Assembly (NCBI GenBank): GCA_030674475.1
Contig: JAUSCZ010000039.1
Coordinates: 1 to 44,014 of the forward strand
Direction of reading: 5' to 3'
DNA: 44,014 nucleotides
From: Candidatus Omnitrophota bacterium
GTDB taxonomy: Bacteria; Omnitrophota; Gorgyraeia; Gygaellales; UBA12090
The notes beneath the pieces are model-generated. The model worked only from the letters and a program-made list of their open reading frames with translations, did not search any database and was not told the DNA's origin. The translations under genes were made by a program, and so were the position numbers. Numbering within the stretch: the stretch's first letter is position 1; the number at the start of each line of letters is the position of its first letter. Shown piece after piece: positions 1 through 41,465 of this stretch.

Positions 1-2
1 CC

Positions 3-665
3 ACCGCCCAGACCACTGCCGAAAAGATCACCCGGCTGACCAACACGGTTACCGAAACCGCCAAGGTTATCCAGGGCTTAGGCGAGAAATCCCAGGCCAT
101 CGGGGAAATCACCGAAACCATTACCTCCATTGCCGACCAGACTAACCTCTTAGCCTTAAACGCGGCTATTGAAGCCGCCCGGGCCGGAGAGGCCGGAAGA
201 GGCTTTGCCGTGGTCGCCGAAGAAGTGCGTAAATTAGCCGAAGGCTCAGCCGAGGCGGTCCGAAAGATAGGCAAGCTGATTAAATCCATCCAGAGCGAAA
301 CCCAAGAAGCAGTCAAGGCCATTCAAACCTCCTCCAAGGAAGTCCAGGAAGGCCGGGTTGAGGTGGCCAAGATTACCGAAGTTCTTGGCGAGATCAACCA
401 GTCGGTCAAAGAGGTCAATGAATTAGCCAACCAGATCTCCACCGCCATCCAACAGCAGGTTCAGGAAAACGAACAGGTGGTTAAGGCCGTGGATGAAGTA
501 GCCACCATCGCCAAAGACTCCGCCGCTACCAGCCAGGAGGTCTCCTCAAGCACCGAAGAACAGACCGCCTCAATGGAAGAGGTCTCAGCCTCGGCCCAGG
601 AGCTTTCTAATTTATCAATGGGGTTAAAAGACCTGATGGGGAAGTTTAAGGTAAAAGGAAAATAA
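3..665 (+). CDS. Methyl-accepting chemotaxis protein, C-terminal signalling domain (5' truncated by window edge)
   Basis: The frame is open from base 3 ([12 protein letters not shown]...). It contains the MCP hairpin signature [46 protein letters not shown] and continues to the stop at 665. Confidence 0.96.
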
Positions 666-2832: not shown

Positions 2833-3873
2833 TCAGGTATATTTTCTTGTTTGTAATTGATGTTTAGATATCGCGATTCCTTCTTTTCTTAGTCCCTTTA
2901 AGACAGAATCAAATATACGTTTATCCTTGCCCAAATCCTCCATAAAAACAAGGCCGGATGGTTTGATTTTATTGTCTAAAAGCATTTTCGCGATTAACGC
3001 CGGCACTACGGCGGTTATTTTTTGCATTGAATTAAGTTTTTCTTCTTTACGCGAACGGCTTTTCAGGCGCCAGATAATCTTTTTATTTTTAGTTAAGAGG
3101 ATAATTTCGGAAAGGGTGAAATTATCCTCTTTTCGTGCCTCCAGGATTTTTTTAGAAAGCATCAAATTTTCTTTCTTTAAGAATCCCTGGTTTTGTAAGA
3201 AATTAAAAAAAGTCATAAAGCCGTCCGGTCGGACCACCCGGCATTGAAAACTTTTAAGCTCAGGCTTCTCCAGGAGATTTTCAAAGCCGCTGGCGCAAAG
3301 ATAACTTTCGGCCTCAATTCCAAAAAACTTTTCTTTTCGATATCCGGCAAAAGGAGGAAATTTCTTCTTTTTGCCTTTAAGTATCTGCCAGGAGGGGATT
3401 TGATGCTCCAGGATTAAGTCCTCAAAACACCATAAAAAAGGAAAGAAAGATTTATTTGGCGAGAGCGAGCCGGCTTTGACCTCGATTTCCTGAATGTCAG
3501 GATGTAAGGATAGTTCTTTTCCTAAGATTAAGTTTACCAGCCCCGGCGAAAAACCGCATCCGGCAATTACCGTGATGCCGCTTTTTTCAATCCGCGTTTT
3601 TCGCTCAAGATAAAATTCCGCGTCTAAATCCGAGACATCTATGAGGGGTTTTTTGTAGCGCAGGGCTAATTTTAGGCAATCCTGGCCCAGGCTTCCGGCC
3701 AGGGCTCCGATTATAAGAGCGCACCCTTTAACCTCTTTGCCCGCGTTGGTTAAAAGAGTGATTTTATCGGCAGTTTTATTTTTTTTTAGATAGCGGGAAA
3801 TCGCCCGGGCAATACGGCCGTTACCCAGGATGACAATGCCGCTCTTTGAGGGCTCATTGATTATAACTGCCAT
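2833..3873 (-). CDS. Saccharopine dehydrogenase-like / carboxy(nor)spermidine dehydrogenase-like NAD(P)-binding protein
   Basis: N-terminal Rossmann VILGNGRIARAISRYL; CGFSPGLVN motif typical of the saccharopine dehydrogenase family. Overlaps speE. Confidence 0.8.
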   Translation of the reverse strand: MAVIINEPSKSGIVILGNGRIARAISRYLKKNKTADKITLLTNAGKEVKGCALIIGALAGSLGQDCLKLALRYKKPLIDVSDLDAEFYLERKTRIEKSGITVIAGCGFSPGLVNLILGKELSLHPDIQEIEVKAGSLSPNKSFFPFLWCFEDLILEHQIPSWQILKGKKKKFPPFAGYRKEKFFGIEAESYLCASGFENLLEKPELKSFQCRVVRPDGFMTFFNFLQNQGFLKKENLMLSKKILEARKEDNFTLSEIILLTKNKKIIWRLKSRSRKEEKLNSMQKITAVVPALIAKMLLDNKIKPSGLVFMEDLGKDKRIFDSVLKGLRKEGIAISKHQLQTRKYT

Positions 3874-4742
3874 ATCCTGGGCATTATCAGGCTGGCGTGG
3901 TGGATTTCAGGAGAGTAGTATTTTAAAGCGGAAAGTTTTTCGTCTAATCTTTGCCGGGCTCTTCGCGTGATCTCCTTGATATTTATTTCTGCCGGATCGG
4001 TAGTTTTGGCGGCCAGGAGAAAACAATATTCACAGCCTGAGCTGTATGAGGGCATGGGCAGGCGCAGGGGCGAGACGAATTCAAAGAGTTTTTTTAATTT
4101 TCCGGCAATTCCTTTTATAATCAAATCAAAATCTAAAAACGGCCCCAGCTGGAAAACCGCGACTCCGTCTTTTCTTAAGGCTTCATAGACGCTTTTATAA
4201 AAGTTAAGCTCAAAAAGGGCCTTACCGGGCCCGACCGGGTCAGTGGAATCCACCACAATAGCGTCAAAAAAGTCTTTGTTTTCTTTGATAAAGTTTTTCC
4301 CATCGGCGAAAAGAAGATTAAGCCTTTTGTCTTTAAAGCTTCCCCGGGAAACAAAAGGCAGATATTTCCGGGAAAGTTTAACCACCTCTTGGTCAATGTC
4401 AACCATATAAAGTTCATCCAGGGGGTGCTTGGAGGCTTCTCTTAATACCCCGCCGTCTCCTCCTCCCACTACCAGGAAGCGCTTAGGATTTTTATGGGAA
4501 ATCAAAAGCGGGTGGACAATCATCTCATGGTAGATGAATTCGTCGCTCTGGGAAAACTGGATTATTCCGTCAAGAGAGAGCATCTTGCCAAATCCCGGGC
4601 TTTCAAAAATATGAATATCCTGAAACTTGCTCTTTCCTTTAAATATTTCTTTTTTGAGGCCAAAGATATCCCTTTTACATCTTCTTATTCCGGGAAACGC
4701 CGCTTCAACAAACCACTCTTTCGGGTCGAAACAAATTTTCAT
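3861..4742 (-). CDS. speE: Spermidine synthase (aminopropyltransferase)
   Basis: MLSLDGIIQFSQSDEFIYHEMIVHPLL, VVGGGDGGVLREASKH, DAIVVDSTDPVGPGKALFELNFY. Confidence 0.95.
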   Translation of the reverse strand: MKICFDPKEWFVEAAFPGIRRCKRDIFGLKKEIFKGKSKFQDIHIFESPGFGKMLSLDGIIQFSQSDEFIYHEMIVHPLLISHKNPKRFLVVGGGDGGVLREASKHPLDELYMVDIDQEVVKLSRKYLPFVSRGSFKDKRLNLLFADGKNFIKENKDFFDAIVVDSTDPVGPGKALFELNFYKSVYEALRKDGVAVFQLGPFLDFDLIIKGIAGKLKKLFEFVSPLRLPMPSYSSGCEYCFLLAAKTTDPAEINIKEITRRARQRLDEKLSALKYYSPEIHHASLIMPRIWQL

Positions 4743-5107
4743 AAATTTCCTCTTCTTAAAAGGCGCGCCTTTACTTTTTTAGGAGAAAGATATTTTTTTA
4801 GATACTCCAGGGCGCCGTAAGGTTTGGTATTTTTGCCGCAGGTAAAGATGTCTATGGCAATATAGTCATGTTCAGGCCAGGTGTGTATGGCGATGTGGGA
4901 TTCAGCCAGTAAAACTACCCCGGTAATTCCCTGAACGGGAAATTTATAGATTGAGGTTTTAAGCGGGGTGTTGTTGGCGGCTTTGGCCGCCCCCAGCAAG
5001 ATCCTTTTTAATTCCGCGGAATTTTTAATAAATTTCGGCGATTTAAAATCCGCGATTAAATGTATCGGAGAACTAAAGGTATCTTTTTTATAGTTTTTTT
5101 GGGCCAT
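4739..5107 (-). CDS. speH: S-adenosylmethionine decarboxylase proenzyme
   Basis: VLLAESHIAIHTWPEHDYIAIDIFTCG, including the ES autocleavage site. Confidence 0.96.
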   Translation of the reverse strand: MAQKNYKKDTFSSPIHLIADFKSPKFIKNSAELKRILLGAAKAANNTPLKTSIYKFPVQGITGVVLLAESHIAIHTWPEHDYIAIDIFTCGKNTKPYGALEYLKKYLSPKKVKARLLRRGNL

Positions 5108-5176: not shown

Positions 5177-5677
5177 TTATTCCTCTTTTTTGCTTCCGGC
5201 TAAGGAGACTACCTTTTCCACGTGCTGGATTTCAGTGGGACTCAGGACTTTCTTAAGGTCTAAGAGAACTAAAAGCCGGTCTTTGCTGAGTTTTCCTACG
5301 CCGTAGATATAATGCTCCTGAACTTCAGTTTGAATAACCGAAGGGACATCTTCGATCTGTTCCGAAGATAACCTTAATACCTCGGAAACCGAGTCTACCA
5401 CCATTCCCATGGTCATATTCTCAATTTCGACAATGATGATGCGGGTATTTTCTCCTCTGGGCTTAGAAGGGATAACCAGCCTTTTGGCCAAGTCAATAAC
5501 CGCGACCACCTGGCCCCTTAAATTAACCACTCCCTCAACAAACTCCGGAGCCTTGGGCAGATAAGTAATAGGTATAAGCCTGACGATTTCCCTGACCTGG
5601 CTTATATCCACCCCGAATTCCTCGTTGCCGATGGCAAAGATTACCAATTGGTATTCTTTTTGTTTTTCTTGAGCCAT
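5177..5677 (-). CDS. cheW: Chemotaxis coupling protein CheW
   Basis: FAIGNEEFGVDISQVREIVRL, VVNLRGQVVAVIDLAKRL. Confidence 0.95.
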   Translation of the reverse strand: MAQEKQKEYQLVIFAIGNEEFGVDISQVREIVRLIPITYLPKAPEFVEGVVNLRGQVVAVIDLAKRLVIPSKPRGENTRIIIVEIENMTMGMVVDSVSEVLRLSSEQIEDVPSVIQTEVQEHYIYGVGKLSKDRLLVLLDLKKVLSPTEIQHVEKVVSLAGSKKEE

Positions 5678-5726: not shown

Positions 5727-5781
5727 GTAGGGGCGGGTTCGAACCCCACTATCGTAGGGGCGGGTTCGAACCCGCCCCTAC
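5727..5781. repeat. Truncated plus complete GTAGGGGCGGGTTCGAACCCGCCCCTAC palindromes in tandem
   Basis: gtaggggcgggttcgaacccc-actatc-gtaggggcgggttcgaacccgcccctac. Confidence 0.95.
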
Positions 5782-6389
5782 TCAGTTACCCCGAGCGCTG
5801 AAAAAACCTTACTTAGAGATTCTATGGAAGGGAAAAGCAGGAACAGCCCTTCCAGGTTTACCTCGCTTACCTTCATCTCAGTTTTGATGTAAAGGGCTTC
5901 TTCCGAATATTGGGCAATCTGGATAAAGATAAAATCCAAAATCGCCCCCACCATATCTATGGCCAGGGTGGGAGCGGAAATCAGGATATTTAACTTGGTC
6001 ATATCGGCCAGGGCCGCGACATAAGAACCGCAAAGGATGTTAGCCGTCTCTTTTAACGAGGATTGAAGCATTTCATCCTGCAGGTTGATTTGTTCGCCAG
6101 GCTGGCCTAAGAGTGCCCCGGAAAGGTTTTTGGCGTCATCCGGCGGGAATAAGAGAAACATCCTTCCGGTTAAGTCTCCTTCCAATTCCATATCTATTAC
6201 AAAAAATAGCCTCTCTCTTTCTTTTAAGAGGTTGGCGATGTTTTCCAGCGGCACAAAGTTTACCAGGGGAACGGTGATTTCCACCCTCTTAGAAAGCAGT
6301 TCGGATAAGGCTGTGGCCGCCCGCCCGGCTCCGATAGTGCCGATTTCTTTTAGTAAATCTAATTGGGCTAATGAAAATCGTTTTTCCAT
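5778..6389 (-). CDS. cheC: CheC-family CheY-P phosphatase paralog 1 (first site degenerate)
   Basis: QLDLLKEIGTIGAGRAATALS (N replaced by T in D/S-x3-E-x2-N); second site SLKETANILCG intact with P 22 residues later. Confidence 0.88.
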   Translation of the reverse strand: MEKRFSLAQLDLLKEIGTIGAGRAATALSELLSKRVEITVPLVNFVPLENIANLLKERERLFFVIDMELEGDLTGRMFLLFPPDDAKNLSGALLGQPGEQINLQDEMLQSSLKETANILCGSYVAALADMTKLNILISAPTLAIDMVGAILDFIFIQIAQYSEEALYIKTEMKVSEVNLEGLFLLFPSIESLSKVFSALGVTE

Positions 6390-6579: not shown

Positions 6580-7623
6580 TTAAATCGCTTTAGCTATCTC
6601 CTGAACTATCTGCTGCGGAGAAAGGACCTTATCGGCCAGGCCGGCTTCATACACCGCCTTGGGCATTCCCCAGACTACTGAGCTTTCTTCGTTTTGGATA
6701 ATGATTGTGCCGCCTTTTTCTTTGATGCTTTTTGTTCCCTCCATGCCGTCTTTACCCATCCCGGTAAGGATTATGCCGATAATATTCTCACCGCAGGCCT
6801 GGGCCGCGGAGGACATAGTTACGTCTATTGAAGGACGGACAAAGTTTACTTGGGGATCCTGGGTAAGCCGTGCCTTTAGATGTTCTCCGTATTTTTCCAC
6901 AATCAGATGATGCCCGGCGGGGGCGACATAGGCCTTACCGGCACAGATAAATTCGTTATCCTCCGCCTCTTTGGCTTTTATTTTTGATTCCCAGGATATC
7001 CTTTCGGCAAAAGTCGTGGTGAATCCCACCGGCATATGCTGGACAATTATGAAGGCCGCTTTATCGGTTCCAGGGATGTTTTTCATAATATCCAGCACTA
7101 CCTTTGGCCCGCCGGTAGAGGCCCCTATAATTACCAATTTTTTGACGGCAAATACTTTTTCTTTCGCGGACGGGGCCACGATTCCGGAGGAGACTACGGA
7201 CATAAATTTATCCAGTTCAATTTTTCCGGCCAGCTTTATTTTTGAGACTATTTCATCTTTGAGCTTATAGATATCCAGGGATATTTCACCCGAAGGTTTG
7301 GCGATAAAATCTATCGCCCCTAACTCCAGGGCTTTCATGGTGTCGTTGGTCCCTTCCTTGGTATAGGCGGAAAGCATAATTACCTTGGTAGGCTGTTTTT
7401 TCATTACCTCTTTAAGCACGGCTATCCCGTTTAAGAGAGGAAGATTGATGTCTAAGGTAACGATATCCGGCTTAAGCTCCAGTATCTTTTGCAGTCCTTC
7501 TCTTCCGTTTTTGGCTTTATAGATAACCTCCAGGGCCGGATCAGCGTTGATGGCGTCGCCGATGACTTTACGCATTAGGAATGAATCTTCGACTATCAAA
7601 ACCCGGATTTTCTTAAGGCTCAT
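6580..7623 (-). CDS. cheB: Chemotaxis response regulator protein-glutamate methylesterase CheB
   Basis: REC domain plus IIGASTGGPKVV, IVQHMPVGFTTTFAERI, IILTGMGKDGMEG. Confidence 0.98.
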   Translation of the reverse strand: MSLKKIRVLIVEDSFLMRKVIGDAINADPALEVIYKAKNGREGLQKILELKPDIVTLDINLPLLNGIAVLKEVMKKQPTKVIMLSAYTKEGTNDTMKALELGAIDFIAKPSGEISLDIYKLKDEIVSKIKLAGKIELDKFMSVVSSGIVAPSAKEKVFAVKKLVIIGASTGGPKVVLDIMKNIPGTDKAAFIIVQHMPVGFTTTFAERISWESKIKAKEAEDNEFICAGKAYVAPAGHHLIVEKYGEHLKARLTQDPQVNFVRPSIDVTMSSAAQACGENIIGIILTGMGKDGMEGTKSIKEKGGTIIIQNEESSVVWGMPKAVYEAGLADKVLSPQQIVQEIAKAI

Positions 7624-7630
7624 TTGATAA

Positions 7631-8122
7631 TTAAACCTCTTTTCTTCCCCAGGAGACGGTGTCTACAAAGACCTTGCCGTTTTCCAGATTCAGTTCTATG
7701 GTTCTTCCGAAAGTTCCGCCTACTTCTTCGGCGGTAATTTTAATGCCTAATTCGTTAAGGACTATTCGGGCCATCTCGATATTCTTTTCCCCCACGTTTA
7801 AGATGCTGTCAACGGTGATGAAGCTGAACATATGGGCTCCTCCGAAAAGCTTTATCACCAGGCTTGTTTTTGGACAGCCCAGTTTTTCAAAATCTTCGAT
7901 GCTTTTTTTGATTACGGAATTGACAAAGCGATGGGGGTTGGATTTCATTCTGGCCTTGTCAATATCCGGAAGCATGGGATGGGCCATCGTCCCGATCTTT
8001 TTTCCGGGATGATAAAAGGTGATGCCTAAACAGGAGCCCAGGGCTCTGGTGATTAAACGCGCGGGCGCGCAGCCTGTGTGCATATTCCCCATTGAAACTT
8101 CAATCAGATTATCTTCCGCCAT
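7631..8122 (-). CDS. cheD: Chemoreceptor glutamine deamidase CheD
   Basis: RALGSCLGITFYHPGKKIGTMAHPMLP, KLFGGAHMF, EEVGGTFGRTIELNLENGKV. Confidence 0.97.
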   Translation of the reverse strand: MAEDNLIEVSMGNMHTGCAPARLITRALGSCLGITFYHPGKKIGTMAHPMLPDIDKARMKSNPHRFVNSVIKKSIEDFEKLGCPKTSLVIKLFGGAHMFSFITVDSILNVGEKNIEMARIVLNELGIKITAEEVGGTFGRTIELNLENGKVFVDTVSWGRKEV

Positions 8123-8171: not shown

Positions 8172-8543
8172 CTATCCTTTTAATGCCCTATTTACCGCCT
8201 CAATTACTCTTGAGGGCTGAAAGGGTTTAGTGATAAAGTCTTTTGCTCCGGCCTGGATTGCCTCAACCACTAATGAGTGTTGGCCCATTGCCGAGACCAT
8301 AATTACCCTGGCCTGGGGGTCAATCTTCATAATCTCTTTTACCGCGCCAATTCCGTCTAAGTCTTCAACCTTGGGCATTACGATGTCGCAGGTTACCACA
8401 TCCGGTTTTAATTCCTTGTATTTATCAATAGCGGCCTTGGCGTTCTCCGCCTCTCCACAGACCTCATAGCCCTCTTTCTTGAGTATATCAGAGAGCATCT
8501 TGCGCATAAACAGCGCGTCATCCACTACCAGAATCCTTGCCAT
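8172..8543 (-). CDS. cheY: Chemotaxis response regulator CheY (copy 1)
   Basis: Single REC domain: ILVVDDALFMR, DVVTCDIVMP, VIMVSAM, GAKDFITKPF. Confidence 0.96.
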   Translation of the reverse strand: MARILVVDDALFMRKMLSDILKKEGYEVCGEAENAKAAIDKYKELKPDVVTCDIVMPKVEDLDGIGAVKEIMKIDPQARVIMVSAMGQHSLVVEAIQAGAKDFITKPFQPSRVIEAVNRALKG

Positions 8544-8563: not shown

Positions 8564-9406
8564 TCATAAATCAATTTTCCGATATATTTTTTCTTTGGGC
8601 AGAATGGTTTCAAAAAGCCTTCTTTCCCAAAGGGTTTCCACCTTGCTTAAGACCAGGTATCCTCGAGGGTTAAGCAGGCGGTGAAATCTTTCGAAGAGTT
8701 CGCCTTTTTGCTGATGGCTTAAGTAAATCATCACATTCCGGCAGAATATCGCGTCTAAATAGTTAAAAGAGGGGTCGCGGCTTAAGTTGCACTGTTCGAA
8801 TTTTACCATTTGTTTTATTTCGTCTTGGACGCGGCAAGTATCGTCGCCCAGGGGAATGAAATATTTCTTCATAATCTTTTTATCGATTTTCGCCAGCCTG
8901 TCGTCAAGTTTATATTCCCCTTTTCTGGCCTTTTCCAGGGCATCGTTATCAATATCCGTGCCCCAGATTTTTACCACAAAGCCCGTCTTTGCCCCCAGGG
9001 CTTCTTTTATCAGGATGGCCAGGGAATAGGTTTCCTCGCCGCTGGCGCAGCCTGCCGACCAGAAACGGATAATCCTGTGGCTGGCGGCTTCTTTCTTAGG
9101 GATAATTTCCGAGATAAGTATATTTTTAAATGCCGCGAATACATCGCTATCGCGGAAGAATTCAGTTACATTTATGGATAGGTTATCCAAAAAACGGTTA
9201 AATTCTTCAGGCTTTTCCTGAAGCAGTTTTATGTAATCAAGATAATTTTGGCATTTAGCCGCTTGAATCCGTAAACGCAGGCGCCTAAAGGCGAATCCCT
9301 CGCGGTATTGGCTTAAATCAACCCCCTTGTATTCCCGGATAAAATGGAGTATTTTCCTGAGACCATTTTCATCGGACTTGGCACCGGTTTCAGCTTTGAG
9401 CATCAT
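8564..9406 (-). CDS. cheR: Chemotaxis methyltransferase CheR (start placed at internal Met; ORF extends to 9451)
   Basis: FAFRRLRLRIQAAKCQNYLDYIKLL, NVTEFFRDSDVF, FWSAGCASGEETYSLAILI, IFCRNVMIYL. The longer N-terminus is encoded by a repeat. Confidence 0.96.
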   Translation of the reverse strand: MMLKAETGAKSDENGLRKILHFIREYKGVDLSQYREGFAFRRLRLRIQAAKCQNYLDYIKLLQEKPEEFNRFLDNLSINVTEFFRDSDVFAAFKNILISEIIPKKEAASHRIIRFWSAGCASGEETYSLAILIKEALGAKTGFVVKIWGTDIDNDALEKARKGEYKLDDRLAKIDKKIMKKYFIPLGDDTCRVQDEIKQMVKFEQCNLSRDPSFNYLDAIFCRNVMIYLSHQQKGELFERFHRLLNPRGYLVLSKVETLWERRLFETILPKEKIYRKIDL

Positions 9407-9413
9407 TAAATTA

Positions 9414-9497
9414 GCTTTTGAACAATAGAACAATTGAACATTAGACCGCAATTGAGCTTTTGTTTGTCTATTGTTCTATTGTCTATTGCTCAATTGC
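9414..9497. repeat. Hairpin of CAATTGTTCTATTG-type words (family C)
   Basis: gaacaatagaacaattgaacattag ... ctattgttctattgtctattgctcaattg. Confidence 0.85.
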
Positions 9498-9506
9498 TCT
9501 GTGCGC

Positions 9507-9540
9507 TGTCATATTAAGAAGTAATGTCACAGCGCACTAG
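9507..9540. repeat. Hairpin downstream of comFB-like gene
   Basis: GTGCGCTGTCATattaagaagtaATGTCACAGCGCAC. Confidence 0.7.
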
Positions 9541-9800
9541 TGCCGGGGTTTTTTACTGACATGCAGTATGGCCTTGGTCAGGTTGGTCATTATATCCACA
9601 TGAGACTGCGTAAGTAGTTCTTTAAGCTTAGTATAAATTCTTCCCTTATTTGAGACTACATATTGGCTATTCATCCGGTTTAAAGCAAAGGCCGCCATAT
9701 CCAATTTGCATTTTTCGCATTTACAGATATCTTCAATATCCGTAAGCAGTTTATCCAGTTCGTCTTTGACCGCGTCTTCCATATAGTTATAGAGTTTCAT
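9537..9800 (-). CDS. ComFB-family protein
   Basis: ICKCEKCKLDMAAFALNRMNSQYVVSNKGRIYTKL matches the ComFB CxxC and ALNxxxxxYVVSxxG pattern. Confidence 0.88.
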   Translation of the reverse strand: MKLYNYMEDAVKDELDKLLTDIEDICKCEKCKLDMAAFALNRMNSQYVVSNKGRIYTKLKELLTQSHVDIMTNLTKAILHVSKKPRH

Positions 9801-11947
9801 TAGGTGGTTTCCTCCCTGTCCTCAAAAATTATTTTTACCCGGGAACCCTCGGTCAAAGCGGTGGTAAAACCGGCGGGCAGATCGTTTACCAGGATTTTCA
9901 TTTTTTTGCCGAAGGCCTCGTGAGGGTTGAAATCTATGTAGCGGAAGATTTCCGAGAGTATTACCTTGCGCGCCTTCAGGCGGTAGACTTTTATATCGGC
10001 TCCGTCAATCAGGAACTCTTCCGGCTTTACCTGATGCCCGTTCATAAATATCTGCTGAGGTTCAATGTCAATAATGATGTCTTGGTCTCCCACCTGGACG
10101 CGCATCTTTTCGCTTGCTTCTGTCGTTTCCACGACATCTTTAATCCTGTGGAAAATAGCCGTACCGGGGGTAAATTCAATTATGTCCTGAGGCTTAATTT
10201 CTGTCTCCAAATTCGCGGATTTTTCGTTAACCTTCAAGGTGAAGTTGGATTGAGTAAGGACCTTAGGGTTGTCATTTATGTTTACCAGGATTTGTCTTTG
10301 ATTGAGGTTCTCTGGCTTAAGGCCTTTTTGTTTTAAGATATCCTTGGCCTTTAAAGTAAGGACGCGGATATGAGAACGGTCTAAAATCTCCGTGTCAAGG
10401 CCCACCTCTTTTTCATTCATCACTACTATTGGCGTCAGCGGTAAGGTTTCCCGGTTAAAGACGATTTCCTGATACCCGATTCCTAATAGTTCTTTTATTG
10501 AACAGGAGGCATTTTCTCCGTCAATAGCTTCCTGAAATTCTATTTTATCCGCCTCGTCTATCTTTTGGGATAAAGAGTCTATGTCTTTTCCGTTAAGCAG
10601 TATTTTCGCTCCTTCACCCAGGGTCCCCTTGATTATTTTTAATTCTCCGTTTACCGTGCAGGTTATGGCCATCCCCGGCCGGGGATAAAGCCTTTTATGG
10701 GCCAGGATGCCGGACAAAGTAAGAGCACCTACTATATCTTTTTTTTGCTGGAAGTCAAGCATCTTGAATTTTTTATTATTAACCTCAACCTCGATAAAAT
10801 TCAGCCCCGAGGATTCCGCGGTCATCACCGCGATTCCCAAAGGGGTAACCGCCTCCGGGCCGCTTAAGCCGGGGGTGATATTTTTTATAGTCTTTATTGC
10901 CGAAGGCAGGCGGATTCCTATTTTTTCCGCGGCGAGGTTAAATCCTCTGGCCAGCTCCGGAATCAGGTTAAAGGTCCGGCTTCCTCCGCCGACAACAATT
11001 ACCGCCTGGGGAGCCTTTCCGCCGTTTAACTTGAGCGCGGCCTGAGCGATAGATTCGGCTAATTTTTTGGTTATCCCGGAAATTTTTTCAATCAAAATCC
11101 GGGATTCCACCTCTCGTTTTCTTCCCCAGATGTCTTCGTATTTAATTTTTTCCTCATCCGGCAATAAGCGCTTGATTCTTTCAGCGGTGGCAAAGTCAAC
11201 CAGGAGGCTTTCCGAAAGGACCTCGGTGATTTCATCCCCCGCCAAAGGAACCATCCCGTAGGCAAAGACAAATCCGTCGCCCGTTATGGCTAAATCCGAG
11301 GTGCCCGCCCCGATATCCACCAAAACCAGGTTGAGTTTGCGCAGTTCCTCCGGGACTATGGCATTGATGGCCGAAATCGGCTCTAAGGTAATATTGGTAG
11401 GGATGAGGTCTGATTTTTTCAGCACGGCGAACATGCTGTCTAAAACCACCTTAGGCAATAAGGTAACAATAACTTCGCAGGAGATGGTTTTCCCCCGGTG
11501 GCCGGTGAGGCTGGATATCCGCATCCCGTCTAATTCGTAATAGATCGGGCTGTAACCGGCGCAGTAACAGCGGGAGATATTTTCGGAACTGGAAATAATT
11601 TTATCTACCGCCTCCAACTCCAGGTTTTTTACCATCTCCGGGGTTATTTCTTCGCTTAACTCAAATTCCCTGACCGCCTTACTGGTAGAGGTTGAAAGGT
11701 CCCGCCCGGCAACCGCGACCCCGACTTTTTGTAATTTTTTATTTTGGCGCGACTCCAGAGCGGATTTAATCCGGCGCACGGTTTTAGCGGCGTCCTCGAT
11801 GTTTTGGATCTGGCCGTCCAGCATCGGCCGCGAGGGGTGTTCAAGGGTCTCGCTGTCAATAATTTCTATTCCTTCCTCAGTCCGGCGGCAGACTATGCCC
11901 ATTACTTTTCTGGTTCCGATATCCAAGGCAAAAATTTCATTATCCAT
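9800..11947 (-). CDS. FtsA-like (PilM/FtsA superfamily) ATPase with long C-terminal extension, 715 aa
   Basis: Actin-fold/SHS2 motifs: IFALDIGTRKVMGIVCR, LNLVLVDIGAGTSDLAITGDG, AVIVVGGGSRTFNLIPELA. Overlaps the comFB start by 1 nt. Confidence 0.88.
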   Translation of the reverse strand: MDNEIFALDIGTRKVMGIVCRRTEEGIEIIDSETLEHPSRPMLDGQIQNIEDAAKTVRRIKSALESRQNKKLQKVGVAVAGRDLSTSTSKAVREFELSEEITPEMVKNLELEAVDKIISSSENISRCYCAGYSPIYYELDGMRISSLTGHRGKTISCEVIVTLLPKVVLDSMFAVLKKSDLIPTNITLEPISAINAIVPEELRKLNLVLVDIGAGTSDLAITGDGFVFAYGMVPLAGDEITEVLSESLLVDFATAERIKRLLPDEEKIKYEDIWGRKREVESRILIEKISGITKKLAESIAQAALKLNGGKAPQAVIVVGGGSRTFNLIPELARGFNLAAEKIGIRLPSAIKTIKNITPGLSGPEAVTPLGIAVMTAESSGLNFIEVEVNNKKFKMLDFQQKKDIVGALTLSGILAHKRLYPRPGMAITCTVNGELKIIKGTLGEGAKILLNGKDIDSLSQKIDEADKIEFQEAIDGENASCSIKELLGIGYQEIVFNRETLPLTPIVVMNEKEVGLDTEILDRSHIRVLTLKAKDILKQKGLKPENLNQRQILVNINDNPKVLTQSNFTLKVNEKSANLETEIKPQDIIEFTPGTAIFHRIKDVVETTEASEKMRVQVGDQDIIIDIEPQQIFMNGHQVKPEEFLIDGADIKVYRLKARKVILSEIFRYIDFNPHEAFGKKMKILVNDLPAGFTTALTEGSRVKIIFEDREETT

Positions 11948-11950
11948 AGT

Positions 11951-12571
11951 TTACAACCCCAGCATTTCAAAAATCTTCTTGGTGCTCGCGTATTCCAGAA
12001 GAAGGGTAACAAAAAGGTCTATCTCGATATTTTCGATACACATCTTGTTTTCAATAGACATAATGTATTTGACGTCTTCGCCGATGAATTTTTTTATCAA
12101 GACTTTATTCAAGTTGTTCATTTTATCAATGGCAGTCTGGGGCGATGAAGGAATAAGCAGGCGGTGGTTAAGCATTTCGCCTACCGAATCCAAGTAAGAA
12201 CAGCAGAGGATATAAGCAGTTTCCGAGATGGCCGAAAGTTCAATTAAGGTAAGCAGTTCGCTTGAGCCGGGTTTCCTTTTCATCAGTATATCGCTTAGCA
12301 AGAGACTGCTTTTTTTGGAAAAAAGCACCAGGGCCCCTCCGCGCAGGGTTCCTAATATCCTGGAACATATCGCGATGCTGATTTCCTGCGGCTCCTTGAA
12401 AAACTCCGTATCGTCCAGCTGGTCTAAGCGCAGAAACTTCACCTCGGGTATATTTATGGAAACTATCTTATTCATCAACTGGCCCAGGGCAGTGGCGGCG
12501 TTTCCCGCTCCGACATTGCCGATTTCCCTGAGGGCGTCTAATTGAATAGGGGAGAAGTTTAAATCTACCAT
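11951..12571 (-). CDS. CheC-family phosphatase paralog 2 (second site degenerate)
   Basis: LDALREIGNVGAGNAATALGQ intact with P 22 residues after N; second site SAISETAYILCC (N replaced by Y). Confidence 0.88.
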   Translation of the reverse strand: MVDLNFSPIQLDALREIGNVGAGNAATALGQLMNKIVSINIPEVKFLRLDQLDDTEFFKEPQEISIAICSRILGTLRGGALVLFSKKSSLLLSDILMKRKPGSSELLTLIELSAISETAYILCCSYLDSVGEMLNHRLLIPSSPQTAIDKMNNLNKVLIKKFIGEDVKYIMSIENKMCIENIEIDLFVTLLLEYASTKKIFEMLGL

Positions 12572-12601
12572 TTACTCCTCGTATAGTATGTGTTATAGAC
12601 T

Positions 12602-12737
12602 GTTAATGACGAATTCCTAAATCCGAATGTCTAATGAATGACGAATTCTTAAATGGTAAATGTCTAATTTTTTTAGACATTTAGACATTAAACATTAGGC
12701 ATTTATTCGTCATTTTAGATTTCGACATTAGACATTT
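12602..12737. repeat. Long hairpin of family D (AATGACGAATTCCTAAAT...)
   Basis: aatgacgaattcctaaatccgaatgtctaatgaatgacgaattc ... attcgtcattttagatttcgacattagacatt. Confidence 0.85.
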
Positions 12738-12753
12738 TCATGCTGCTGCCTCT

Positions 12754-14811
12754 CTAGTTTTTTAAGCTCATTATATCTAAAATCAAGGCTACCCTGCCGT
12801 CGCCGAGTATCGTGGCTCCGGCTATCCCTTTGGTTTTTTTTACAAAACTCGGCAAAGGTTTAACCACGATATCCTGCTCGCCTATTATTTGATTCACTAA
12901 AAGAGCCAGGGCCTTTTTCTCATACTCAATTATTACCAGCGGGATGGCTTCATTAATTCCGGTAGTTTCCTGGGTGCGGTTAAGGGAAATGCCCAGTTCT
13001 TTCTCTAGCCTTATTACCGGGATAACTTCATCCCGGACATTAATTACCTCAAAATGTTGAACCATTTTTATTTCTTCCGGACGCACCTTGATGGTTTCCC
13101 GGATATTCATCAGGGGAACGGCTAAAATTTCCTGCCGGACTTTGACTAACATTGCCTTGATTATAGCCAGGGTTAAGGGAAGGGTAAGCAGGAATTTCGT
13201 GCCCAGGCCGATTTTAGTTTCAAAATCCACTCTCCCGCCCAGGGATTCTATCTTCACTTTTACTACATCTAAACCCACCCCTCTTCCTGAGGTATCGGTT
13301 ATTTCTTTGGCGGTGGAGAAGCCGGGCATAGTTAATATCTCCAGCACCCTTTTCTCGTCAAGGTGAGACACTTCCTGTTCCGGGATGAGCCCTTTTTCAA
13401 CAGCTTTTTTTCCCACCGCGGCAAAATCCACTCCTCTTCCGTCATCGGCCACCTCAATGGAGATATGGCCTTTTTGGCGGGTGACTTGGATAGAGATTTT
13501 TCCTTTGGGATTTTTGCCTTTGGCCTTTCTTTCCTCGGGAGTTTCCAGCCCGTGGTCAATGGCGTTTCTTAAGAGATGTATTAATGGGTCTCCTATTCCA
13601 TCCAGGACCACCCGGTCTAATTCAATTTCGCTGCCGGTGATTTCCAGGTCTATTTCTTTATTTTTGCGCCTGGCTAAATCCCGGACTACCCGGGTAAAAT
13701 TATCTAAGATATAGGCGACCGGAAGAAGCCTGGTTTGCATTATTTCATTCTGCAGGGCTGAGGTGAGATGGTCCAGGGTAAAGCTGATTTCTTCCAATTC
13801 CTGAATTTTTAAGGACTGCACTACCTGGACCAGGCGGATTTTGGAAATTGCCAGCTCCCCCATAAGGTTCATAATCTTGTCTAATCTTTGCACCGGAATC
13901 CTGATGCTCTGGATTTTTTTTAGGTATGATGATGGCTGTTCTGTTTGCGCGCCGGCTGATCCGGTGCCTCCGGATGGGGTTGCGGCGGCGGAAGGCTCAG
14001 AGGCTGTTTCCTGAGGATGCGCGGGCTCGGAAAGAGATGAGGCTCGAGGTTTAATCTCCGCGGAGCTGACTTTGACATCGTCTACCTCCGAGATGCCCGC
14101 TAGTTCCTGCTGGAGGATTTCCGACTTTTCCTTAACGGCCAGGACTATCAAAAAGGAGCGGTCAAACCTTCCTTCTTTCAGTGCCTCCAAGGAAGGCGCG
14201 GCGGCCAGGATTTCGCCCCGCCTTTTTAGATTGGTAATTACTAAAAAGGCCCGGGCCTCTTTCATCGGGCAATTTTCGGAGAGGGTAATTTGGATCTTAA
14301 AAACATTAAATCCGTTTTCTTTGGCTTCTTTAAATTTAATCAGTTCAACTTCAGTCCATTCTACTTCGTCTAAGGTGATAAACGGTGTTTTCCTGGTCAA
14401 AGGCCCCGCCTCCTCTGACGGCCCTGGCGGGGGTTCTTCCAGCAATAGATTTTTTAAGGCTTCCATGCAGGCGGAGATATCCGTTTTGGATTCCTGATTC
14501 AGCCTGACCTCCTGAAGTAATTGTTCCAGGAGGTCAACCCCGGCAAAAAGCGTGTCAATGATATTAGAGGTTACCGCTTTTTTCTGGCCGCGCAGTTCGT
14601 CCAGCAGGTCTTCCATTTGGTGGGAAATCTGGGCAATCTTATCATAGCCCATAGTGGCGGACATCCCTTTCATGGTGTGGGTGCAGCGGAAGATCTCATT
14701 CAGGGAATTAAGGTCGCGGGGATTTTCTTCCAATTTGACCAGGCATCCGTTCATATTGTCCAGATATTCCTGGGATTCGGAAAGAAATATTTCTCGGTAA
14801 CTATCTTGCAT
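12754..14811 (-). CDS. cheA: Chemotaxis histidine kinase CheA
   Basis: HPt HTMKGMSATMGY; dimerisation VQRLDKIMNLMGELAISKIRLVQ; HATPase LIHLLRNAIDHGLETPEER; GRGVGLDVVK; C-terminal CheW-like domain. Confidence 0.98.
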   Translation of the reverse strand: MQDSYREIFLSESQEYLDNMNGCLVKLEENPRDLNSLNEIFRCTHTMKGMSATMGYDKIAQISHQMEDLLDELRGQKKAVTSNIIDTLFAGVDLLEQLLQEVRLNQESKTDISACMEALKNLLLEEPPPGPSEEAGPLTRKTPFITLDEVEWTEVELIKFKEAKENGFNVFKIQITLSENCPMKEARAFLVITNLKRRGEILAAAPSLEALKEGRFDRSFLIVLAVKEKSEILQQELAGISEVDDVKVSSAEIKPRASSLSEPAHPQETASEPSAAATPSGGTGSAGAQTEQPSSYLKKIQSIRIPVQRLDKIMNLMGELAISKIRLVQVVQSLKIQELEEISFTLDHLTSALQNEIMQTRLLPVAYILDNFTRVVRDLARRKNKEIDLEITGSEIELDRVVLDGIGDPLIHLLRNAIDHGLETPEERKAKGKNPKGKISIQVTRQKGHISIEVADDGRGVDFAAVGKKAVEKGLIPEQEVSHLDEKRVLEILTMPGFSTAKEITDTSGRGVGLDVVKVKIESLGGRVDFETKIGLGTKFLLTLPLTLAIIKAMLVKVRQEILAVPLMNIRETIKVRPEEIKMVQHFEVINVRDEVIPVIRLEKELGISLNRTQETTGINEAIPLVIIEYEKKALALLVNQIIGEQDIVVKPLPSFVKKTKGIAGATILGDGRVALILDIMSLKN

Positions 14812-14814
14812 GAA

Positions 14815-15426
14815 TTATTTTATGTCTATTGACCTAAGGATAATTTCTAATCCTTCGGGATTGGGGATGATAAAAAAATGGCCCTTGATGGAGGTGGTCG
14901 GCTCGGTGAATTCGGAGTCAATCAGCAGGGCAAATTCGGATTTACAGCTGAGTTCAATCAGGATGTAATCAATGATGGCTCCGGCCATATCAACGATCAG
15001 CTCGGGAACGGTGGGGACAAAGCCTAAACCGACAAAACTGCTTAAAGCGCCTAAGTAGGCGTTGGTAAGAATCAGGCCGACCTCTTTAAGCGCGGAGCGT
15101 TCCAGGTCGCCGATTATACTGCTTTCGGAGACCGGTTTTCCGGTCATCAGCGAGGAGAGGGCAAGGGCGTCTCTCTGGGAAAAGATAAATACGATTGTGC
15201 TGGGCAGGTCTCCCAGGACGCGCAGAACCAGTCCGGTTACCAGATTATTTATGCCTCCTACCGCGGCAGGAACTTCTTCTATGGGCAGAACCAGCATTCG
15301 CGGGACAATGATATTTATTTTTTTGTTAAGCAGTTGAGAAAGGGCGGTGGCGGCGTTCCCCGCGCAGATATTCCCGATTTCAATAAGCGCGTCTTTCTGG
15401 ATATCGGTTAAAACGATATTCTTCAT
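14815..15426 (-). CDS. CheC/CheX-family phosphatase paralog 3 (second site degenerate)
   Basis: KDALIEIGNICAGNAATALSQ intact with P 22 residues after N; second site SALKEVGLILTN (N replaced by L). Confidence 0.88.
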   Translation of the reverse strand: MKNIVLTDIQKDALIEIGNICAGNAATALSQLLNKKINIIVPRMLVLPIEEVPAAVGGINNLVTGLVLRVLGDLPSTIVFIFSQRDALALSSLMTGKPVSESSIIGDLERSALKEVGLILTNAYLGALSSFVGLGFVPTVPELIVDMAGAIIDYILIELSCKSEFALLIDSEFTEPTTSIKGHFFIIPNPEGLEIILRSIDIK

Positions 15427-15496: not shown

Positions 15497-15871
15497 CTAA
15501 GGGTTTGCCAGTATTTTTCTTACCGTATCTTTCAGGCGGTCAGGATTTACCGGCTTATTCAGGAAGTCCTTGGCCCCCAGCCGGATAGCTTCAACCACCA
15601 GGGCCTGCTGGCTCATTGCCGAGATAACCAGGATCTTAGCCTTAGGGTCGAGCCTGATGATTTCCTTCACCGCCCCGATACCGTCTAATTCTTCCATCAT
15701 CGGCATAACAATATCCATCGTTACCAGATCCGGCTTCAGGGTTTTGTATTTTTCCACCCCGTCCTTGGCGTTGGAGGCCTCACCGCAGACCTCATGGCCC
15801 TCAGCTATAAAAATAGTAGTAAGCACCTGGCGCATAAAAAGCGCGTCATCCACAATCAATATTCTTGCCAT
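15497..15871 (-). CDS. cheY: Chemotaxis response regulator CheY (copy 2)
   Basis: ILIVDDALFMRQVL, DLVTMDIVMP, ILVISAMSQQALVVEA, GAKDFLNKPV. Confidence 0.95.
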   Translation of the reverse strand: MARILIVDDALFMRQVLTTIFIAEGHEVCGEASNAKDGVEKYKTLKPDLVTMDIVMPMMEELDGIGAVKEIIRLDPKAKILVISAMSQQALVVEAIRLGAKDFLNKPVNPDRLKDTVRKILANP

Positions 15872-19201: not shown

Positions 19202-20158
19202 ATGGAAGAAAAAAATATAAAAATCGCGGTTATTACCGAAGATCAAGGCATCCAGGAGTATATGTCTTTGATTTTAGTTGGTGAAAACTACGATGTCAAA
19301 ACTTATTTCACCCAGGAAGAAGCTTTAGCCGGTTTAGGCAGTTACCTCCCGGATTTAGTCATTTCGGATTTTCAGTCCCCCCATATCAACGGCATAGATA
19401 TCTGCAAGGCCCTAAGAAGAAACTATATGTTTGCCCATATTCCTCTTATATTCATTCTTGAAGAAACCGGACCGCTGACAATAGGAAAAGTGATTTATTC
19501 GGGAGCGGATGATTATATCCAAAAATCAACCATAGAGGAGGAATTTCTGCTGAGAGTAAAGCTAAGCCTGCACCGGACAATGCGCCAGCAGGATGTAAAT
19601 CCCATAACCCGTCTTCCCGGACAGGCGGGCTTACTTAAGGAGCTGCAAAAAAGAATAGACGCCAAAAGCGTAACCGCGGTTTGCTCTGTGGACCTGCTTA
19701 ATTTCAAGGATTTTAACCGCCGCTACGGCTTTAAAAGAGGCGACCGGGTGATTGAATTTACTGCCGGCCTGATTACCCGGGCAATGAGTGAGCTGGGAAG
19801 CCCGACGGATTTCTTAGCCCATCCCCAGGGAGACGATTTTATCTTTATCACCTTTCCCGAGGGAGCGGAAATAATCGCTAATAAAATAATTAAAGATTTT
19901 GATACCGATATTCCTTCTTTTTACGATGAGGAAGACAGGATCAGGGGCCACATCTTAGCGAAAAGCCGCAAAGGCGAAATCTTAAAGATTCCCCTTCTAA
20001 GGGTGCATATCGGTATTGTTACTAATGAGTATTACCAGTTTATCAATCCCGCCCAGGTAATCCAAATTGCCGTCGAGCTAAACGATTTCGCCCAGAAAAA
20101 TTTCGGCAAGAGTATGTTTGTAAAGGAAAGAAGAAAAGAATATCCCTTTCTTAGCTAA
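19202..20158 (+). CDS. Response regulator with degenerate GGDEF-like output domain
   Basis: REC-like N-terminus (LPDLVISDFQSPHINGIDICKAL). GGDEF fold with signature degenerated to QGDDF. Confidence 0.82.
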   Translation: MEEKNIKIAVITEDQGIQEYMSLILVGENYDVKTYFTQEEALAGLGSYLPDLVISDFQSPHINGIDICKALRRNYMFAHIPLIFILEETGPLTIGKVIYSGADDYIQKSTIEEEFLLRVKLSLHRTMRQQDVNPITRLPGQAGLLKELQKRIDAKSVTAVCSVDLLNFKDFNRRYGFKRGDRVIEFTAGLITRAMSELGSPTDFLAHPQGDDFIFITFPEGAEIIANKIIKDFDTDIPSFYDEEDRIRGHILAKSRKGEILKIPLLRVHIGIVTNEYYQFINPAQVIQIAVELNDFAQKNFGKSMFVKERRKEYPFLS

Positions 20159-22337: not shown

Positions 22338-22709
22338 TTATTTCTTAGGACAGGCTCCGGTAATGCCGTCTAGGCCCACGCTAAGTACCCCGGTTGCGGC
22401 AGTGTAATGAGCATTCCAATTCCCGGAACTTGAAGTGGGAGCTGCAGGCCAAGATTGCAGATAGCCGCCTAAAACAGCTGCACTGACGGTACCAGGCCAA
22501 GGAGTAAGGTCGGCGGGGACATTAATCACCTGACTGGCGTAAAAGTTAGATATAGCCGCTCTTAGTGCTCCGCCGCTTTGCTGGCAGGCTGCTTGTCTGG
22601 CGCTAGCCCTTAAATCCATAAACCTAGGAATTGCGATCGCGGCCAAGATACCGATGATAACGATAACCATAACCAACTCAATCATTGTAAAGCCTTTTTC
22701 TTTATTCAT
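22338..22709 (-). CDS. Type IV pilin / pseudopilin-like protein (start at MNKEKGFTMIEL)
   Basis: Prepilin cleavage/methylation motif KGFTMIELVMVIVIIGILAAIAIPRFMDL; C-terminal Cys pair AAC...GACPKK. Confidence 0.96.
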   Translation of the reverse strand: MNKEKGFTMIELVMVIVIIGILAAIAIPRFMDLRASARQAACQQSGGALRAAISNFYASQVINVPADLTPWPGTVSAAVLGGYLQSWPAAPTSSSGNWNAHYTAATGVLSVGLDGITGACPKK

Positions 22710-22795
22710 TTGCCACCTCCGTATTTTTATTAATAACATATACTTAGAATATTGTCAACATTTTTTTAACTTAAATGCCGCTAATTTTTTTCAAA

Positions 22796-22857: not shown

Positions 22858-22872
22858 TAATTTTTTCTACTG

Positions 22873-22964
22873 GCAACTGGCTGCCTGATTATCGTTGGTG
22901 AACCTAACCAGGCCCTGTTAGCTTTGCGTCCCATCCTTGCGGAATGGTTTGCTCTTTTCAGCAA
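22873..22964 (-). promoter_or_regulatory. GEMM-I riboswitch aptamer (c-di-GMP-I fold), putative GEMM-Ib/cGAMP subtype
   Basis: Minus strand: TTGCTGAAAAGAGCAAACCATTCCGCAAGGATGGGACGCAAAGCTAACAGGGCCTGGTTAGG...CAGGCAGCCAGTTGCC. Diagnostic GCAAACC, GNRA-capped stem, GGGACGCAAAGC and AGC...GUUGCC elements. Confidence 0.92.
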
Positions 22965-41287: not shown

Positions 41288-41465
41288 AGAAAAGGAAAGT
41301 TATTTTACTTCCCTGCCGTGCGCGTCAGGACTTGGAAAATAGTTGAACCAACATTATTGTAATGGGAGCTGAAACTCCCTTGACAGTTCGCTGTTAAGGG
41401 GAGGCACCCACCTGTGAATCAGGGTTCAAGTAATCAGTTCGACGGCAATGCGCGGGGATTTTTTT
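41288..41465 (+). ncRNA. ssrS: 6S RNA candidate (ends approximate)
   Basis: Closing stem TCCCTGC...GCGGGGA, internal TTGAACC...GGTTCAAG pairing, rod-like structure, cggcaatgcgcggggaTTTTTTT 3' terminator. Confidence 0.78.

Follow-up and report, generated by a model that had tools for sequence, protein, structure and literature searches.

A ComFB-family protein and an FtsA-like ATPase in a CheC/CheD-type chemotaxis operon of Omnitrophota: a possible cyclic-dinucleotide input to CheR

In Pseudomonas aeruginosa, MapZ needs c-di-GMP to inhibit receptor methylation by CheR1 (PMC6370697). ComFB proteins are called widespread cyclic-dinucleotide receptors and their targets are mostly unknown. Cyanobacterial ComFB binds both c-di-AMP and c-di-GMP, and deletion of comFB in Synechocystis alters pili and lowers the levels of PilJ, PixJ1, PixL, and CheA (PMC12313861). 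ComFB of Bacillus subtilis binds zinc through C25, C27, C30, and C88, and a role in sensing zinc or redox state has been suggested for it (PMC4381287). Our literature search found no paper that joins ComFB with chemotaxis. Here, a ComFB gene located in a chemotaxis operon, next to a gene for an FtsA-like ATPase, is described. The window, which is the whole stretch of 44,014 nucleotides that was analysed, makes up one contig of a 2.19-Mb Omnitrophota genome that is 92% complete.

The chemotaxis operon and its probable output

The operon has the order cheY-cheC3-cheA-cheC2-FtsA-like-comFB-cheR-cheY-cheD-cheB-cheC1-cheW. CheA, CheW, CheY, CheR, CheB, CheC, and CheD are all present, as in a CheC/CheD-type chemosensory system. 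The features of the window are as follows.

1-665, plus strand: end of a methyl-accepting chemotaxis protein, a plausible CheR substrate (listed ORF 210-665; the window edge probably cuts the gene)
5177-5677, minus strand: cheW
5778-6389, minus strand: cheC-1
6580-7623, minus strand: cheB
7631-8122, minus strand: cheD
8172-8543, minus strand: second cheY-type response regulator
8564-9451, minus strand: cheR, receptor methyltransferase, recurrent partner of ComFB (the listed TTG start is uncertain)
9537-9800, minus strand: ComFB-family protein, 87 aa
9708-9725, minus strand: CxCxxC (C26, C28, C31) of ComFB, predicted zinc site, with partner His87 at 9540-9542
9800-11947, minus strand: FtsA-like ATPase, 715 aa
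9803-10816, minus strand: C-terminal extension of the FtsA-like protein, about residues 378-715, tandem beta-grasp-like repeats (Pfam ThiS match at residues 544-592)
10868-11947, minus strand: FtsA-type actin fold, about residues 1-360, with DIGTRK (9-14), DIGAGTSD (211-218), and GGG (320-322)
11951-12571, minus strand: cheC-2, directly 5' of the FtsA-like gene, with one intact phosphatase half-site
12754-14811, minus strand: cheA (Hpt, P2, dimer, ATPase, and CheW domains)
14815-15426, minus strand: cheC-3
15497-15871, minus strand: cheY-type single-domain response regulator
19202-20158, plus strand: receiver-GGDEF protein with the altered motif QGDDF
22869-22963, minus strand: c-di-GMP-I riboswitch, upstream of a pilin gene (22338-22739, minus strand)

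The FtsA-like gene begins 3 nt past cheC-2, and its TAA stop codon overlaps the ATG start codon of comFB by one nucleotide (TAATG). The comFB gene is preceded by GGGAGG and is separated from the downstream cheR by 85 nt. The reading frames confirm the first-pass annotation, which had placed a 715-aa FtsA-like gene and a ComFB gene with a 1-nt overlap between cheC-2 and cheR, and the GEMM-regulated pilin that it had reported is also present at the riboswitch listed above.

Each of the three CheC paralogues keeps one intact D/S-xxx-E-xx-N phosphatase half-site, which is the second one in CheC-1 and the first one in CheC-2 and CheC-3. The intergenic regions 9452-9536 and 12572-12753 contain many short AT-rich repeats (CAATAGACAATAG; TGTCTAATG/GACATT), and a hairpin (GTGCGCTGT/ACAGCGCAC) lies between comFB and cheR. 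Elsewhere in the window, a 6S RNA is found at 41307-41462 (58.4 bits), and speD-speE-like and saccharopine-dehydrogenase-like genes, named by eye from the sequence, form a possible polyamine cluster at 2833-5107.

The chemosensory output is probably type IV pili, and an output of this kind rather than a flagellar one had been anticipated for the window. PilT-family ATPases are found in 33/33 genomes, including all carriers tested, and FlhA in 1/25 carriers; no FlhA was found anywhere in the source genome, which is 92% complete. Several che clusters have pilin or pilus genes beside them, as in locus L042, where pilin, PilM-like, and T2SSF genes come after the che cluster. No conserved pilus gene is found inside the operon. 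Riboswitches were looked for near the other che clusters and the ComFB-CheR fusions described below and none was found, so the link between riboswitch and pilin is local to the window. Receiver-GGDEF genes recur near the clusters, which would suit an output in gene expression or c-di-GMP metabolism and not in motility; this is a rather unlikely alternative, against which PilT in the carriers and the pilus genes beside the clusters argue indirectly.

ComFB, its zinc site, and its association with CheR

The 87-aa protein matches the Pfam ComFB model (PF10719) with an E-value of 3e-24 and 85.2 bits, against a curated cut-off of 25, and scores 43.2 bits against the 120 bits of the NCBIfam equivalog for late competence protein ComFB (NF052654). 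Judged by these models, it is a member of the domain family and not the competence equivalog. Its profile matches the solved ComFB of B. subtilis (1.3e-9) and the c-di-GMP receptor 8hja (7.5e-5). The latter match supports a possible cyclic-dinucleotide input, as had been proposed for this gene; this receptor, CdgR, has a solved structure and does not have the zinc cysteines of the window subtype. The AlphaFold2 model of ComFB, from an input alignment whose rows are near-copies, has a pLDDT of 51, too low for use.

The zinc-binding cysteines of B. subtilis ComFB (C25, C27, and C30) have their counterparts in C26, C28, and C31 of the window protein. His87 is present in 32/32 alignment rows that have all three cysteines and a resolved column, and in 0/6 resolved rows without the cysteines; a motif search located a histidine at the matching site in 17 of the 18 fusions. 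Because His87 and CxCxxC co-occur and are lost together, the window ComFB would have a C3H zinc site in which His87 is the likely fourth ligand. This conserved and jointly lost site, together with the zinc binding of the B. subtilis protein and the sensing suggested for it (PMC4381287), would be compatible with a ComFB that tunes CheR as a zinc or redox sensor and involves no cyclic dinucleotide. Such a role is unlikely, since the zinc site is gone in ComFBs that are still paired with CheR (loci L107-L110) and several genomes have a GGDEF or GGDEF-EAL gene beside ComFB.

CheR lies directly 3' of stand-alone ComFB in 27 of the 34 cases with a readable neighbour, the window included, and is not directly downstream in the other 7. 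The two domains are also joined in 18 ComFB-CheR fusion ORFs from 14 genomes, one of which is encoded at C22 of the source genome (Pfam ComFB 56 bits, CheR 195 bits); at least one fusion has a ComFB part so degenerate that Pfam does not recognise it. Genome G070 has a che operon without cheR and a ComFB-CheR fusion just upstream of it. The che operon of family f37 contains cheA-ComFB-cheR and no FtsA-like gene, and the ComFB-CheR pairs of family f35 are found downstream of dprA, away from che genes. In the f35 loci L106, L107, L109, and L113, ComFB follows dprA, which is a competence gene, and CheR comes next in all but L113.

In the CheR tree, the ComFB-linked CheRs separate from four other sampled CheRs (99/95), where three CheR-TPR-like proteins from genomes without ComFB (L063, L064, and L067) were counted as unlinked and L045 was labelled “none”, the ORF upstream of its CheR being broken. 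All 18 fusions fall into a single group (100/99). Since linked CheRs and fusions group in this way, the pairing is, on the evidence of the tree, old within the phylum Omnitrophota, to which the survey was confined, and need not have arisen many times. Searches of plasmids by tblastn gave no ComFB-CheR fusion among the matches listed, and a Stenotrophomonas ComFB from these searches has no CheR neighbour. Repeated pairing and fusion make CheR a concrete candidate target of ComFB; they establish an association and do not give the direction or sign of control.

Matches to the c-di-GMP-I riboswitch number 3-9 per genome in 20/20 genomes checked, so c-di-GMP is in use in these genomes. Of the 11 genomes checked for a c-di-AMP synthase, 10 have one, the source genome among them, so c-di-AMP is also a possible ligand of ComFB. 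In the family of the window, four genomes have receiver-GGDEF genes close to a ComFB-CheR fusion, and in family f15 (L112 and L114) ComFB adjoins a GGDEF protein, which is a GGDEF-EAL protein in L112, with no CheR. These neighbourhoods lean towards c-di-GMP, rather than c-di-AMP, as the ligand. Homologues of the receiver-GGDEF protein at 19202-20158 recur near che clusters and ComFB-CheR fusions, and they mostly have GGDDF where the window protein has QGDDF.

The FtsA-like protein

The 715-aa protein matches the Pfam FtsA model (E 4e-11), and an unbroken alignment of its relatives' profile to solved structures of FtsA covers residues 5-358 (E 4e-20). The motifs DIGTRK, DIGAGTSD, and GGG are invariant or nearly so in 14 relatives, and the protein thus has an actin fold with its nucleotide motifs. 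The extension at about residues 378-715 is conserved among the relatives. Both parts had been recognised by the first-pass annotation, an FtsA-like actin fold at the N-terminus and a long C-terminal extension, and the domain search that it proposed for the extension gave, at E 0.01 or better, matches to ThiS in 12/14 members and to TGS and Ub-Mut7C in 3 members each. The tail profile aligned to itself reveals internal repeats (hhalign probability 98%) with offsets of about 60 and about 125 residues. From these matches the tail is read as tandem beta-grasp-like repeats of about 60 aa. In all relatives its end, KIIFEDRE, is strand-like, and no FtsA-type C-terminal amphipathic helix was found in it; the membrane filaments once suggested for this protein are not indicated. 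The AlphaFold2 model, whose input alignment also consists of near-copies, has a pLDDT of 30 and is likewise unusable.

The protein scores below the NCBIfam cut-offs for FtsA (TIGR01174, 110.7 versus 175.85 bits) and for PilM (TIGR01175, 33.1 versus 133 bits). Its gene has neither dcw or ftsZ neighbours nor pilNO neighbours, and is surrounded by che genes. The source genome encodes a dcw-type FtsA at C10, beside Ddl, MurB, and MurC-like genes, as well as three PilM-like proteins and MreB, so the FtsA-like protein was rejected as the division FtsA, PilM, or MreB of this genome, and the earlier caution that it might be the sole FtsA does not apply. In the dcw FtsA (G000:C10, at L047:5256-6479), DIQSDK, EIGFDSTQ, and SGRDA replace DIGT, DIGGGT, and GG; with its nucleotide motifs altered in this way, the division FtsA at C10 may therefore not bind ATP normally.

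The FtsA-like gene is present in 16 of 98 relatives, and exactly these 16 genomes have CheA of the window type and a ComFB of at least 84 bits. It is present in 22 of 386 Omnitrophota genomes, and CheD is found in 22/22 carriers versus 33/364 others; the genomes in both counts are not phylogenetically independent. Relatives with as little as about 48% protein identity still have these genes arranged in this way, so the neighbourhood is not restricted to this genome, which had been named as a reason to abandon it. In family f35, an FtsA-like gene (42-46% identical) is the last in an operon cheW-cheY-cheC-cheD-cheB-cheA-cheC that contains no ComFB or CheR, and topoisomerase and recombinase-type housekeeping genes come next in the one f35 locus whose annotation was extended. 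A search of viral contigs found no relative, and a scan of genome contigs found only near-identical Omnitrophota.

Full-length homologues are also found in Bacillota. By full-length similarity, shared motifs, and tail, the window protein belongs to a Bacillota family of 700-aa FtsA/PilM-like proteins. The Anoxybacillus homologue (34.5% identity over 99%) is encoded in a ccpA, aroA, and ytxJ region, Acetoanaerobium has another, and both loci are away from che genes, so the family is wider than the che context. The tree of FtsA-like proteins does not settle the grouping of the Bacillota members. The Bacillota loci would fit a general housekeeping protein of an old family that is merely carried along in the operon, and this explanation is distinctly unlikely for Omnitrophota, where the gene comes after cheC or cheA in every readable locus and its presence tracks the che system.

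In every cluster read with both genes on one contig, the FtsA-like gene precedes ComFB. A joint polar scaffold of the two proteins that responds to a cyclic dinucleotide and serves the array or pili, as had first been proposed, is improbable, since the one-nucleotide overlap, an adjacency that is fixed in one taxonomic order and confined to it, and the conserved ATP motifs are set against genes that separate elsewhere (FtsA-like genes after cheC without ComFB in the operon, ComFB-CheR operons without FtsA-like) and a ComFB that, in the loci read, is fused with CheR and never with the FtsA-like protein.

Proposed working and comparison with described systems

The preferred reading, which we give an even chance, is that a CheC/CheD-type system acts on type IV pili, with ComFB as a cyclic-dinucleotide input to CheR and the FtsA-like protein serving CheA and CheC. 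ComFB would be a small, probably dimeric, zinc-stabilised helical receptor arm of the adaptation branch and would bind CheR. Binding of a cyclic dinucleotide, more likely c-di-GMP than c-di-AMP, may alter the rate at which CheR methylates the chemoreceptors, and the changed methylation would reset CheA activity and the CheY output to pili. The FtsA-like protein would form a module of its own. As an actin-fold protein that depends on ATP and has a tail of beta-grasp repeats, it would work with CheA and CheC, most likely as a cytosolic scaffold or switch and not as a membrane filament. It presumably uses ATP and binds CheA and CheC; its role beside them is the least certain step. A more specific form, which is doubtful, makes it an actin-type part of the chemosensory system itself, whose assembly with CheA and CheC depends on ATP and which couples or positions the array at the pilus machinery, while the dinucleotide bound to ComFB sets adaptation through CheR.

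If the preferred reading is true, cyclic dinucleotides tune receptor methylation by a second route, one that does not use PilZ, and do so in bacteria without a flagellum. The FtsA-like beta-grasp family gains a functional context, which is chemosensing, in a defined operon and with candidate partners.

The FtsA-like protein shares with FtsA and PilM the actin-type ATPase fold, in FtsA order across residues 5-358, and differs from them by scores below both NCBIfam cut-offs, a beta-grasp-like tail, no amphipathic C-terminal helix, and the che context. The Bacillota proteins of about 700 aa (Anoxybacillus WP_066327715.1, annotated as PilM) have the DIGTR, DIGAGTSD, and AGDEITE motifs and a ThiS-like tail match; unlike the window gene, those at the two loci are not near che genes.

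The window ComFB resembles B. subtilis ComFB (PMC4381287, PDB 4wai) in size, CxCxxC, and profile match (E 1.3e-9), whereas the latter belongs to the comF competence operon and has Cys88 as the fourth zinc ligand in place of what is apparently His87. Cyanobacterial ComFB and CdgR (PMC12313861, PMC13075795) are of the same domain family and bind c-di-AMP/c-di-GMP, but they have about 180 aa versus 87, the solved CdgR has no zinc cysteines, and our literature search found no CheR pairing reported for them. The Synechocystis phenotype fits a role of ComFB in pilus chemosensing, by analogy, and does not imply control of CheR. The MapZ-CheR1 system is similar in that a small cyclic-dinucleotide receptor acts on CheR, as proposed for the window ComFB. 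MapZ is a PilZ adaptor, whereas the window protein has a ComFB domain and no PilZ domain and is of a kind often found next to CheR or fused to it. It would thus be a non-homologous counterpart of MapZ, with a MapZ-like working and outside the MapZ family.
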